A stretch of 35,859 nucleotides of DNA from contig JAGVOD010000060.1 in assembly GCA_020052935.1 (NCBI GenBank), forward strand, positions 1 to 35,859, given 5' to 3'. The notes beneath the pieces are model-generated. The model worked only from the letters and a program-made list of their open reading frames with translations, was not told the origin of the DNA and did not search any database. The translations under genes were made by a program, and so were the position numbers. Of this stretch, positions 12,740 through 33,689 are shown one piece after another. Numbering within the stretch: the first letter of the stretch is position 1; each line of letters starts with the position of its first letter. The DNA is from an archaeon (GTDB taxonomy: Archaea; Nanobdellota; Nanobdellia; Woesearchaeales; UBA11576).

Positions 12740-12956
12740 TATTTGTTTAACAGCAGCGCCACCGCCAATCCGCGAAGCGATGCACTGCAAATTATGTGCA
12801 CAGACAAGGGGGACGCCCACTCTCGAATGCCTGGCATTCGTGAGTTCCCACAAATCCCTGGGATTTGTTTGACATCCGGGGACTGTCTGTATCAACAGAG
12901 CGAATTCACAAGCGGAGCATGGCGTGGCGCTGCTGCTGGAATTTATCAAACAAATA
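12740..12956. mobile_element. Element A of structured MITE-like family, with internal hairpin insertion
   Basis: TIR TATTTGTTT (12740-12748)/AAACAAATA (12948-12956); stem CAGCAGCGCCAC[c]GCCA/TGGCGTGGCGCTGCTG; inner stem ACAGACA/TGTCTGT; imperfect flanking repeat cgagttttct (12730-12739)/cgcgctttct (12957-12966). Confidence 0.72.
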
Positions 12957-13109
12957 CGCGCTTTCTAGCCTCTGGCTACGCATAATTCTTCAATCCTAAA
13001 ACCTCGAATTCTGGCTCTATACGGCTTGGCGAGGCATTTTAAAAACAAAACACATATAAATACCTCAACTTTCCACATATCAGATTCTAGCATATTTTTC
13101 ATAGGAAAA

Positions 13110-15581
13110 ATGGTAGACGCAAATACACCGAATCAGAGCAAAGACGCTGGCAGAGATAGGCCTGAGAATATCATTCCTACAGTGGTTGAGAAAGAGATCA
13201 AGCGCGCTTATCTTGACTACTCCATGTCCGTCATCGTAGGCCGCGCGCTGCCAGATGTCCGTGATGGTTTGAAGCCTGTCCACCGCCGAGTACTTTACGC
13301 GATGCATGATCTAGGCATGCTTTCCAGCAAGCCTTTCAAGAAGTCTGCCAGGATCGTGGGCGAAGTCATCGGTAAGTATCATCCGCATGGCGATGTTGCG
13401 GTATATGACACATTGGTCAGGATGGCGCAGGAGTTCTCATTGCGATACCCTCTTATCCAGGGTCAGGGCAACTTCGGCTCTGTAGATGGTGATTCAGCAG
13501 CGGCGATGAGGTACACAGAGGCCAGACTCTCCAAGATTTCTGAGGAGATACTTGAGGACCTGAAGAAAGAGACAGTGGATTTCCAGCCCAACTTCGACGG
13601 TGAGCTTAAGGAGCCTATCGTGCTTCCTTGCAAGTTCCCGAATCTTCTTGTCAATGGCAGCTCAGGAATCGCGGTAGGTATGGCTACAAACATCCCTCCG
13701 CATAACCTCGGAGAGGTCATTGATGGCACAATCCACCTGATAGACAAGCCCGACGCTACGCCGCAGCATCTGATGCGTTTCGTGAAGGGTCCTGATTTTC
13801 CTACCGGCGGCATAATCCAGGGGACTGCGGGAATAAATGAGGCTTACAATTCTGGCAGGGGCAAGGTCAAGATCCGCGCCAAGACCCGCTTTGAGAAGAT
13901 CAAGAACCGAGAGTGCATCATCGTTTCCGAGATCCCTTACCAGATCAACAAGGCGCTTCTTATCGAACAGATAGCCGACCTGGTGAATGACAAGCACATA
14001 CTGGGCATCCATGACATACGTGATGAGTCTGACCGTGATGGCATGCGCATCGTCATCGAGCTGAAGAACGATGCGACTCCGGACGTGGTGTTGAATCAGC
14101 TCTTTACGCATACCCGTCTTGAGTCGACATTTGGTATCATACTCATCGGCCTGGTGAATAATGAGCCCAGGATACTGAACCTGAAGGAGATGACCCAGGT
14201 ATTCATCGACCACAGGCGAGAGGTAGTCAGGCGGCGCGCGATGTTCGACTTGAGGAAAGCAGAGGAGCGCGCTCATATCTTAGAAGGCCTGATAGTCGCT
14301 TTGAACAACATCGACGCTGTAGTCCAGAAGATAAAGAAGTCCAAGGATGCTGAGGCTGCGAAGAACATGCTTATCACGGATTATTCCCTTACCGAGATCC
14401 AGGCCAAGGCTATATTGGAGATGAGGCTCCAGAAGCTCGCTTCTCTCGAGCAGCAGCAGATAAAGGACGAGCACAAGTCCCTTCTGCAGCTCATTGTCGA
14501 CCTGAAATCGATCCTCGCGTCTGAGCAGAGGATACTTGACATAATCAAGAAGGAGCTTCTTGACATCAAGGAGCGTTTCTCTGATGCGAGACGCACAGAG
14601 ATTGCGGCTAATGGTGGGGAAGAAGGCATGACTGACGAGGACCTTATCGAGGATGAGGATGTCGTCGTCACAGTTACGCACGCGGGCTATGTCAAGCGCC
14701 TGCCGGTCACGACGTATAAGCAGCAGGGTCGCGGAGGTAAAGGCATAATAGCTACAGGCACCAATGATGAGGATTTTGTTGAGCGCCTTTTCATAGCCTC
14801 CACGCACTCGAATGTTCTTCTGTTCACGAACAAGGGTCAGGTGCATTGGCTGAAGGTGTATGAGATCCCCGTAGGCTCTCGCCAGGCGAAGGGCAAGGCA
14901 ATAGTGAACCTTGTGCAGCTTGAGGCAGGGGAGATGATCAAGGCGTTCGTGCTTGTTAAGGAATTCGACGATAATCATTATCTGATAATGTGTACGCGTT
15001 CAGGCACCATAAAGAAGACCTGCCTTGGTGCATTTGCCAGGCCTAGGAAAGGTGGCATCCGCGCCGTGACGATAAACGAGGGCGATGAGCTTGTTGGTGT
15101 GGCGATGACTGATGGCACGAAGAACATGGTCATCGCTACGAAGGAAGGCATGGCTAGCCGCTTCTCAGAGGCTGATGTGAGGCCTATGGGCCGCTCTGCA
15201 GCAGGCGTCCGTGGCATCACGCTCCGCGACAATGATGTTGTCGTCGGCATGGTCATTGCAGAGGATGACAAGACGCTTCTTACAGTGACTGAGAACGGCT
15301 ACGGAAAGCGCAGTCTTGTCGAGGACTATCGTCTGATAAGGCGCGGTGGTGTCGGCGTCAGGAATATCGTCTGTTCGGAGCGCAACGGCAAGGCAGTTGC
15401 AATAAAGTCCGTGACTGATGATGATGAGCTCATGCTCATATCTCAGAATGGCATAATCATCAGGACTTCTTTAAAGCAGATATCTGTGATTGGCCGTTCG
15501 ACCCAGGGCGTGAGGCTGATGAAGCTGGAAGAAGGGGATAAGCTTGTCGATGCCACTAACATAGTCAATGAAGAGCAGTAA
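13110..15581 (+). CDS. gyrA: DNA gyrase subunit A
   Basis: [49 protein letters not shown] (catalytic Tyr), GyrA-box-like QQGRGGKG in C-terminal domain; TATA-like acatataaat at ~13050; ORF start 13026 is probably upstream of the true start. Confidence 0.95.
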
Positions 15582-15582
15582 G

Positions 15583-16725
15583 ATGAAAGGTCTCATAGTC
15601 ACACATCCGGGAATGGAGGCTGTTTCTGGAAAGGAAGTCAAGGAGCTTATCGACGCTGACTGTAAGGTCTCGCCGTCTGTGGCGTTGTTCGATGCGAAGA
15701 AGCTGGAGGATTTCCTTGTCCTGGCCTATCGTTCCCAGTCTGCGATCAAGGTTGTCTGCTTGCTTATTTCCTGTCCTGTCAAGAAGCTGGATGATATCTT
15801 GCCGAAGATAAAGTCGCTTGATCTTTCAGGATGGCTTAAGGGCAAGTCTTTTGTCGTGAGGAGCAAGGTCATCGGCAACGATTCTGTGGATACGATGGAG
15901 TCTGAGCGGGAGATAGGGACTGTTATCTATGAGAAGTATTCCGAGAGTCTCGACGCCAAAGTGAATCTTGACCACCCTGATGTGCCGTTCTTTGCTTATG
16001 TCTATGCCAACACATTCTATTTTGGCGTTGATTTCGCGGGTTTTGATGTCAGCAAGCGCAACTACAGGATATTCTGCCAGTCTGATTCGATAAAAGGCAC
16101 TGTCGCGTACGCTCTTGTCCGTCTCGCAGGGTATGATGGCAAGCAGTCGTTGATTGATCCTTTCTGCCAGTCCGGCACCGTCGCTATCGAGGCCGCGTTC
16201 TTCGCTTCCAGGAAGCCGATAAACTTCTACAGCAAGGAAGAATTTGCGTTCCGCAAGTTTCCCCAGTTCGAGAAGTTTGACTTTGACAAGTTCTTTGCCA
16301 AGCAGGACAAATTCTCTGAAGGGGATACAGGGATAATATGTTCTGACTCGCAGCAGAGGCATGTGAAGGCTGCGGAGAAGAACGCGAAGATCGCCGGCCT
16401 GAATAAGATCCTGAGGTTCTCTCGCCTTGACGTCGAGTGGCTCGACACGAAGTTCGAGAAGAATTCAGTAGACCTCATCGTGTCTAATCCGCCGAAGGTC
16501 TCACGCCTTCTCACGGAAAAAGGTCTCGACAAGATATTCCAGGAATTCTTCTACACAGCAGACTTCATCCTGAAGCCCAAGGGCAAGATAATCATTCTCG
16601 TGAAGAGCTATGCCCAGATACTGAACCAGGCCCAGCGCTACAACTTCATGCTGAAATCAAAGTTCCCCGTATTCCAGGGCAAGGAAGAGTTCAACATCCT
16701 CATCTTCGAGAAAGAGAAGAAGTGA
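15583..16725 (+). CDS. THUMP-domain RNA methyltransferase (RlmL/Trm14-like)
   Basis: THPGMEAVSGKEVKEL N-terminus, SLIDPFCQSGTVAIEAAF, GIICSDSQQRHVKAAEKNAKIAGL, DLIVSNPPKVSRL. Confidence 0.85.
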   Translation: MKGLIVTHPGMEAVSGKEVKELIDADCKVSPSVALFDAKKLEDFLVLAYRSQSAIKVVCLLISCPVKKLDDILPKIKSLDLSGWLKGKSFVVRSKVIGNDSVDTMESEREIGTVIYEKYSESLDAKVNLDHPDVPFFAYVYANTFYFGVDFAGFDVSKRNYRIFCQSDSIKGTVAYALVRLAGYDGKQSLIDPFCQSGTVAIEAAFFASRKPINFYSKEEFAFRKFPQFEKFDFDKFFAKQDKFSEGDTGIICSDSQQRHVKAAEKNAKIAGLNKILRFSRLDVEWLDTKFEKNSVDLIVSNPPKVSRLLTEKGLDKIFQEFFYTADFILKPKGKIIILVKSYAQILNQAQRYNFMLKSKFPVFQGKEEFNILIFEKEKK

Positions 16726-16736
16726 ATAAAAAATTG

Positions 16737-16907
16737 GTATTTGTTTAGCTATTTCTGGCAGCACCACCGCAGGTTATGCGAAGCGTTTCTCTAGGAGAAG
16801 AATTGCACCGACAAGGGGGATGCCCCCTACGGGGAACGTCGGTGTCGCAGAATTAATCTACAAGCGTAGCCCTGCGTGGTGCTGCTTAATGTGAGCTAAA
16901 CAAATAC
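16737..16907. mobile_element. Element B of structured MITE-like family
   Basis: TIR GTATTTGTTTAGCT/AGCTAAACAAATAC (14/14); flanking exact 8-nt direct repeat AAAAATTG (16729-16736 and 16908-16915); conserved core. Confidence 0.8.
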
Positions 16908-16914
16908 AAAAATT

Positions 16915-17286
16915 GTAGGACCGCCATAAGCCGCCTTCTGTCACGCCCAAACAACCATGTTTCAGGTTGCGATGGCATGTCTTGACATTATACTTAGCGC
17001 AGGTAAGCTGCTTGCACAGGCCAGGGCTAGCCGTTTAATCCCTTCCTCAACGAACGTCCAGGGGTTAACTCACTTGTCTCGCGACAGGCTTCGCGCCTAT
17101 CATCCTCCATCGAGGTGGCTTCGTTTCTGAGCTGTTGCCAGCCGTTTCCGACTCTCACTTCCATGAGTGGCCACATAAGTGGGCGGACTTTCCTCAGCAT
17201 CCGAAGGATGCTGAGACCAGCCAAACTGAAAGTTTGGCGCTGCCTCAGCAATGCGTCGGATTCCGGTAGTCAACTGGCAGTCCTAC
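16915..17286 (-). ncRNA. rnpB: RNase P RNA
   Basis: Minus strand contains GAGGAAAGTCCGCC and ACAGAAGGCGGCTTATGG hallmarks; P1 GTAGGACTGCC/GGCGGTCCTAC closes the ends; TATA-like ttttttaaacac ~30 nt upstream. Confidence 0.95.
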
Positions 17287-17339: not shown

Positions 17340-17510
17340 GCCACGCCCTACTCGGCTCCGCCTCGTTCGCCACCACGCCCGCACGATTAACTCAAACTCC
17401 GTGAGTTTGAGGTGCCAAAAATCAGAGATTTTTGAGCATTTTTTGCGAAGCTAAACTAAGTGTCAGGAATCAAAGATTCCTGAGCACATTAAAAACCCGA
17501 AGGGTTTTAA
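17340..17510. repeat. Cluster F: tandem hairpins, including copies of the TGTCA-stem-TGAGCA family
   Basis: CTCAAACTccgtgAGTTTGAG, GTGCCAAAAATCagaGATTTTTGAGCA, GTGTCAGGAATCaaaGATTCCTGAGCAC, AAAACCCgaaGGGTTTT. Confidence 0.6.
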
Positions 17511-17704
17511 ATGAAAAACCAATTATTTCTATTACTAAATTTGCCGCAATAGCGGGCTAATTAGGCGGCGACGACTCAGGCTATGCGTGAGGTCTTACGA
17601 ACGCTTGCGTTCGAAAGAGTCGTGGCTCTGCTCGAGAAAGAGCTAATAAGGCGTTGGCCAGATTCCCACAATCTTTAAATACCTCCGCCTTCTCCTTTGT
17701 TGAC

Positions 17705-19155: not shown

Positions 19156-19178
19156 TTATTCCTGCATCAAATGCTTGG

Positions 19179-19354
19179 GTTCTATCTATAGAGTGGCCAG
19201 TGCCACCGCCAACATTGCGAAGCGTTTCTTAGCAGAATGAATCACACCGACAAGGGGGACGCCCCCTACGGGGAATGTCGGTATCAGTGAGCACAGCCAC
19301 AAGCGTAGCCTGGCGTGGCACTGGCCGAAGTGAAGCTGAGTCTCCTGACAGAGC
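19179..19354. mobile_element. Element C of structured MITE-like family
   Basis: Stem GGCCAGTGCCAC[c]GCCA/TGGCGTGGCACTGGCC; inner stem ACCGACA/TGTCGGT; exact 11-nt flanking direct repeat CAAATGCTTGG (19168-19178 and 19355-19365). Confidence 0.82.
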
Positions 19355-19400
19355 CAAATGCTTGGAAACCTTTATTAATGCCGTTTCTTCTGTTTTCTTC

Positions 19401-33140: not shown

Positions 33141-33418
33141 GTAGGCAGGCACACCCAAGGATGGGCCTACCCAAAACCTGATGGTTTGACCTCAGCTTCT
33201 CCTCGACTCCGCTACCCCTGGAGCACCAACCAGACTGGTTAGGGCTGCTCTGTTCCCAGCCTGACCCGATTCCCGGTAAGGCCAGTCCCCAAGGACAGAG
33301 TGTCATTGTCCAAGCCAAGACCAGCAAGCCTTGGATAGACCTCTCCTCAAGCTTCGGCCCCATCGTGAAGTCGTTTTATGGTTACAGGAGACGACTAACC
33401 TCCCAGCCTAGCCTGCCC
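33141..33418 (-). ncRNA. Signal recognition particle 7S RNA
   Basis: Minus strand helix 8 signature GGGTCAGGCTGGGAACAGAGCAGCCCTAACC; terminal helix GGCAGGC/GCCTGCC; TATA-like catttaaaaaac upstream (plus 33440-33451). Confidence 0.95.
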
Positions 33419-33460
33419 GTGCGGCTCAAAGCTGGAATGTTTTTTAAATGTTTGCCAAGA

Positions 33461-33629
33461 CAGCTCTGTCTGGAGAGTAGCCAGTGCCTTTTTTGCGAAG
33501 CGTCTTTCACTTTCTCCTTCACTCGCGACAGGGGGAAGCCCCCTACGGGGATGTCGCGATTAGCTAAAGATATTCTGTGAGCGTAGCCTGGCACTGGCCG
33601 AAGCGAAGCTGAGTCTCCAGACAGAGCTG
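33461..33629. mobile_element. Element D of structured MITE-like family
   Basis: TIR/outer stem CAGCTCTGTCTGGAGA/TCTCCAGACAGAGCTG (16/16); GCCAGTGCC/GGCACTGGC; inner stem GCGACA/TGTCGC around GGGGGAAGCCCCCTACGGGGA. Confidence 0.8.
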
Positions 33630-33689
33630 CCAATCCCAAAGTTTTAAATATAAAAATTAGTGATAGACTTGTAATTGGTGGTGATTTTT

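Follow-up and report, generated by a model that had tools for sequence, protein, structure and literature searches.

Eight-base-pair duplications have been reported for the IS66 family of insertion sequences (PMC6778807). ISDge4, a member of its ISBst12 group, combines an 8-bp repeat with a transposase of 449 aa and the end GTAACTGCTCAGCA (PMC12898284). Prokaryotic MITEs, among them those of archaea, are short, non-coding, TIR-bounded and multicopy elements with target-site duplications (TSDs), which are mostly intergenic and are presumed to be mobilised in trans; a review of these elements makes no mention of IS66 (PMC10969869). With respect to hairpins, template switching during replication has been described as a way of maintaining them; in RNA genes it leaves multi-base compensatory changes and perfect stems without wobble intermediates (PMC8794818), and d(GCGNAGC) GNA mini-hairpins with a variable N are known from synthetic DNA (PMC4686876, and the papers of Hirao and Yoshizawa cited there). 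We found no report of IS66 MITEs in archaea, or of MITEs in Woesearchaeota, in the open-access literature.

The element studied here, B, is a MITE of the IS66 type from DPANN archaea, and its DNA-like hairpin core is unusually perfect. It comprises 171 bp (16737-16907) between rnpB and the gene of a THUMP methyltransferase; the window, i.e. the whole stretch of 35,859 nucleotides that was analysed, is contig C63 of the woesearchaeal genome G000 (1.64 Mb, 85% complete). The sequence-only reading had placed B between exact direct repeats, the rnpB-side copy starting at the last base of P1. The repeats were confirmed to the base, with an identity of 8/8, and the pairing of the P1 arms verified the starting point: the last base of rnpB P1 is the C of CAATTTTT (16915), so that the right TSD overlaps the final P1 pair. 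The limits of rnpB listed in Table 1 were chosen because the paired P1 arms reach beyond the RF00373 core. Both copies of AAAAATTG directly flank the outermost G...C of the TIRs, and no listed ORF spans the element. Judged by the MITE criteria of a length below 600 bp, no transposase ORF and the presence of TIRs, B is short, TIR-bounded and without a transposase ORF; it also has a TSD and is multicopy, with 42 matches in its own genome. Small palindromic units (e.g. TCAGAAA...TTTCTGA, sometimes joined via GCATGC) occur around and inside rnpB (17195-17240, 17413-17530) and are also inserted in loops of other elements (L013, L019, L026, L028, L082, L083); they are perhaps a second hairpin repeat family.

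Table 1. Features of element B and its surroundings in the window
Feature	Position	Strand	Sequence or basis
THUMP + UPF0020 methyltransferase gene, convergent neighbour	15568..16725	+	adjoins rnpB also in G003, G004
Left 8-bp target-site duplication	16729..16736	.	AAAAATTG; exact copy; TSD statistics
Left TIR, IS66/ISBst12-type end	16737..16750	+	GTATTTGTTTAGCT; perfect 14 bp
5' arm of stem P1/P2	16758..16772	+	GCAGCACCAC, bulged C, GCAG; core alignment
d(GCGNAGC) mini-hairpin consensus	16778..16784	+	GCGAAGC; in 31/31 type I cores
Central hairpin, variable covarying stem	16806..16844	+	around GGGGG-ATG-CCCCC-TAC-GGGG
Second d(GCGNAGC) site	16864..16870	+	GCGTAGC; conserved
3' arm of stem P2/P1	16872..16885	+	CTGC, then GTGGTGCTGC
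Right TIR	16894..16907	-	AGCTAAACAAATAC; perfect 14 bp with left TIR
Right 8-bp target-site duplication	16908..16915	.	AAAAATTG; CAATTTTT on rnpB (minus) strand
rnpB, archaeal RNase P RNA (372 nt)	16915..17286	-	Rfam RF00373 core 16917-17245 + P1 arms
rnpB P1 arms	16915-16925 and 17276-17286	-	5'-GUAGGACUGCC (17286-17276) pairs with GGCGGUCCUAC (16925-16915)
End sequence of B-type ends			GTATTTGTTTAGC

The ends of B recur in autonomous elements: the 14 nt of its left TIR are identical to one end of an insertion sequence in G026, and an identical 13-bp TIR is common to B and the autonomous elements of G026 and G202. The G026 element (1594 bp) has perfect 13-bp TIRs and the exact 8-bp TSD ACAAAAAT on both sides, and encodes two products, an IS66 transposase (453 aa) and a protein of the DUF2080 family (46 aa). 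The G202 element (1590 bp), from a different family, has the same ends, and its right flank ends at the contig end. NF033517 and PF03050 were above cut-off in both elements; the transposases, which are 54% identical, scored 228.6 (G026) and 223.3 (G202) against an NCBIfam cut-off of 180 bits. A transposase remnant adjoining a perfect TIR was found in G310. No tnpA/tnpB accessory ORFs were found in the two autonomous elements; where these would stand in the IS66 family, there is an accessory ORF of 45-46 aa, whose DUF2080 match was confirmed for G026. Since they carry only the transposase and this small ORF, the elements fit the ISBst12 group, which lacks tnpA/tnpB, better than canonical IS66. 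With that group (e.g. ISDge4, PMC12898284) B and its autonomous relatives share the 8-bp TSD, the end GTA..TG.T.AGC and the single transposase of about 450 aa, and the end of B is identical to that of ISDge4 at 9/14 positions. In contrast to the group, B has no ORF and resides in an archaeal host (Woesearchaeota).

Based on its ends, its 8-bp TSD, and the autonomous elements in which the same TIRs accompany an IS66 transposase, B is very probably a non-autonomous IS66/ISBst12-type MITE inserted in the rnpB terminator, which is the best explanation of the locus as a whole. A DDE transposase, provided in trans by an autonomous member of the IS66 family whose 13-14-bp ends are those of B, would cut or copy B and insert it in the rnpB terminator at an A/T-rich target with an 8-bp stagger; joining would leave AAAAATTG on both sides of B. 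rnpB retains a T-rich terminator directly after P1, with a duplicate T-tract beyond B, and the insertion was probably neutral for rnpB. Judged from sequence, a candidate IS66 transposase may have moved B. No IS66 transposase (PF03050) was found in G000, G001, G003 and G008, all of them MAGs; as G000 is 85% complete, this is a weak negative. An autonomous partner is not strictly required of MITEs. With none found in G000, B has for now to be regarded as an orphan MITE, unless its parent was lost or escaped assembly. An IS6 transposase (PF13610) was also considered as mobiliser; it is absent from G000, G001, G003 and G008, and its copies in G002 and G010 lack GTATTTG TIRs and thus have no link to the ends of B. 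A TIR pair spanning 1199 bp in G010 (L135) was rejected as an autonomous element; it consists of two unconnected TIR ends with a gene between them, which we take to be a tRNA thiolation gene, and holds no transposase.

In a scan of 362 Woesearchaeales genomes, with the reversed pattern as control, the TIR pattern proved strongly enriched in about 20 scattered genomes and absent or nearly absent in most of the 362. Elements that share these ends number in the hundreds over the order, and many of them form unusually perfect hairpins. Exact sites number 187 in G010, 109 in G231 and 88 in G008, compared with 0-1 for the reversed control. A search for the core motif in named genomes gave matches almost only in Woesearchaeota MAGs, and none was found in viral contigs. 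Compared with the MITEs reviewed previously (PMC10969869), one 13-bp TIR is here exact across many families of one order, and the interiors are unrelated and structured. G010 harbours a recently amplified subfamily of 139-143 bp. At least three other types of structured interior, each with its own conserved sequence, lie between the same TIRs in G001 and G003 (L066, L071, L079, L081, L085, L089, L091). Within the window, element A (12740-12957) is a decayed family member whose core contains additional, inserted hairpins. The further copy of the repeat that had been noted there holds as a decayed one: the TIRs are TTATTTGTTTAAC and ATCAAACAAATAC, and the flanks GAGTTTTC and GCGCTTTC are identical at 6/8 positions.

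The core of B, termed type I, can be aligned in at least 31 copies, mostly from G000. In its outer stem P1/P2, 405 of the 406 cells of the alignment are Watson-Crick paired; there is one non-pair and no G-U. Changes occurred on both sides of the stem in 39 cases and on one side in none, and 10 of the 14 pairs have changed on both sides. For the element's P1 alone, all 290 cells are Watson-Crick (290/290). As RNA control we chose tRNA acceptor stems in place of folded rnpB, whose mismatch count was not used because folding without G-U misses the true structure. The same set of loci contains 8 G-U in 119 tRNA acceptor pairs, a comparison that involves a small control and related, non-independent core copies. 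The variable N of the 5' GCGNAGC site is A in 19, G in 9 and T in 3 cores, that of the 3' site T in 19, G in 9 and A in 3. The central hairpin of the form G5, loop, C5, loop, G4 recurs in other-family TIR elements that share little else, e.g. L187, L208 and L214. Both TIRs are retained in only 6 of the 31 cores, which means that the core stem outlives the ends. Two core copies of the window (19168-19365 and 33442-33660) differ in their outer stems and lack GTATTTG ends; the former lies between 11-bp repeats CAAATGCTTGG, the latter immediately upstream of the gene for SRP RNA (33143-33418, minus strand). Several cores (L012, L017, L018, L020, L024) are located inside a second concentric GCAGYGCC... 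stem and look as if one element lay within the stem of another, or as if the stem had been duplicated.

Given the perfect Watson-Crick stem, the lack of one-sided and G-U changes, the GCGNAGC sites and the recurring central hairpin, we lean towards preservation of the core as DNA, not as functional RNA. Upkeep would then be due to template-switch correction of the palindrome arms, or to the need for a cruciform or single-stranded DNA fold. The stem resembles the template-switch maintained hairpins in its multi-base compensatory changes, its perfection and its lack of wobble intermediates, but those were described for RNA genes, whereas here a non-coding transposon core is concerned (PMC8794818). 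Similarly, both GCGNAGC sites, which lie in conserved loops, match the GNA consensus (PMC4686876) exactly in 31/31 cores with N variable, and a natural role of these synthetic-DNA mini-hairpins in a transposon may be supposed.

It is possible, if doubtful, that core and P1 stem constitute a separate repeat, REP-like or hairpin-borne, which was captured between IS66-type ends and is merely carried by them. The 25 of 31 cores without paired TIRs, the two window copies with other outer stems (19197, 33490) and the copies nested in a second concentric GCAGYGCC stem (L012, L020, L024) are in its favour, and the core may have a life besides TIR-driven movement. However, TIR-bounded copies dominate where the elements look recent (G010), and an inspection of the P1 ends by eye revealed no TSD. 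It is unlikely that B is a functional structured RNA, i.e. a 3' extension of rnpB, a terminator or a small RNA, with stems selected as RNA. In favour of an RNA, the fold is far stabler than that of shuffled sequences, with z -6.8 on one strand and -8.1 on the other; the stem covariation is strong, the core is conserved in copies without TIRs, and there is a bias to convergent gaps. The element also folds far better than shuffled sequences when DNA parameters are used. On the other hand, B has no Rfam match above the gathering score, the 406 cells contain no G-U or one-sided change, unlike RNA helices, B is missing from rnpB in all congeners, and the orientation of the core relative to genes is mixed (7 same, 4 opposite). 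At a relaxed threshold, Rfam gave chance matches only, rnpB excepted.

That B is an insertion into the T-rich tract of rnpB can be seen from its relatives. The sequence-only reading had suggested looking for empty sites in close relatives, and these were found: in the four congeners G001-G004, one T-rich tract follows the end of rnpB P1 and an element is lacking, and G003 and G004 retain the same convergent THUMP methyltransferase gene next to rnpB. The sites of G006-G008 are likewise empty. In a scan of the 120 nt after rnpB (TIR at up to 2 mismatches) at 35 loci across the order, 33 had an element-free T-rich 3' end; the same junction is thus not conserved in distant relatives. A TIR element was detected only in G000 and G010, beginning at the same offset in both. 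The interior of the G010 element (L050, G010:C302) is unrelated to that of B, its right end is duplicated and it has no matching TSD. G010 belongs to a genus other than that of G000, and its congener G008 has no element at rnpB. The G010 element is most simply read as having arrived independently; since no TSD has been kept, it represents the same place, and an insertion like that of B is not proven for it. Its presence at the same rnpB offset in another genus of the family might be taken to mean that the junction is ancestral and was lost elsewhere, but the unrelated interiors, the empty sites in G001-G004 and G006-G008, and the 8/8 TSD of B, which fits a recent insertion, make vertical descent highly improbable.

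For the TSD test, unique TIR pairs with a spacing of 90-420 bp were evaluated at an identity of at least 7/8, comparing the true offset with 24 shifted ones. An 8-bp duplication was present at the true offset in 60 of the 94 pairs, compared with a mean of 0.9 at shifted offsets; exact duplications numbered 46 at 8 bp and 1 at 9 bp. The TSDs of the family are A/T-rich octamers whose outer positions are freer. Because they concentrate at the true offset, a single one in many separately assembled genomes, the idea that the repeat of B, short and A/T-rich as it is, arose by chance or assembly noise has virtually no credit. The proposal that the repeat is a TSD of the rnpB T-rich tract is hence supported by the empty sites of the congeners, by the 8/8 identity and by the order-wide TSDs.

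A preference for terminators, by which genes would perhaps be spared, had also been suggested. Enrichment is modest: convergent intergenic gaps hold 14 of 52 insertions, compared with 15% of AT-rich intergenic control positions (p = 0.03), and 9 of 22 type I cores (p = 0.003); 27 of 58 insertions lie no more than 30 nt from a gene 3' end, compared with 33% (p = 0.04). However, 10 of 62 insertions are located inside called ORFs. A general terminator preference is therefore weakly supported; to explain the pattern, a choice of A/T-rich targets together with selection against harmful insertions would be enough, as purifying selection would give the same. The repeated arrival at one rnpB offset in G000 and G010 is suggestive and the best hint of a hotspot.

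We tentatively propose that order-wide archaeal transposons might use a structured DNA core whose pairing is maintained as perfectly Watson-Crick in the DNA itself, i.e. a cruciform with GNA mini-hairpins and a switchable G5-C5-G4 hairpin, for movement or persistence, and that T-tract terminators of the rnpB type might be a recurrent landing site. Perfect covariation, which is usually read as proof of RNA function, is here probably a DNA-level feature, which calls for caution in covariation-based RNA discovery. That a safe position behind an essential RNA gene was used in two genera is relevant to the way in which such elements spare their hosts. For uncultured DPANN archaea, the conserved end, the 8-bp rule and the candidate IS66 parents provide a concrete mobile-element system, and with this end and these candidate parents its movement becomes testable.
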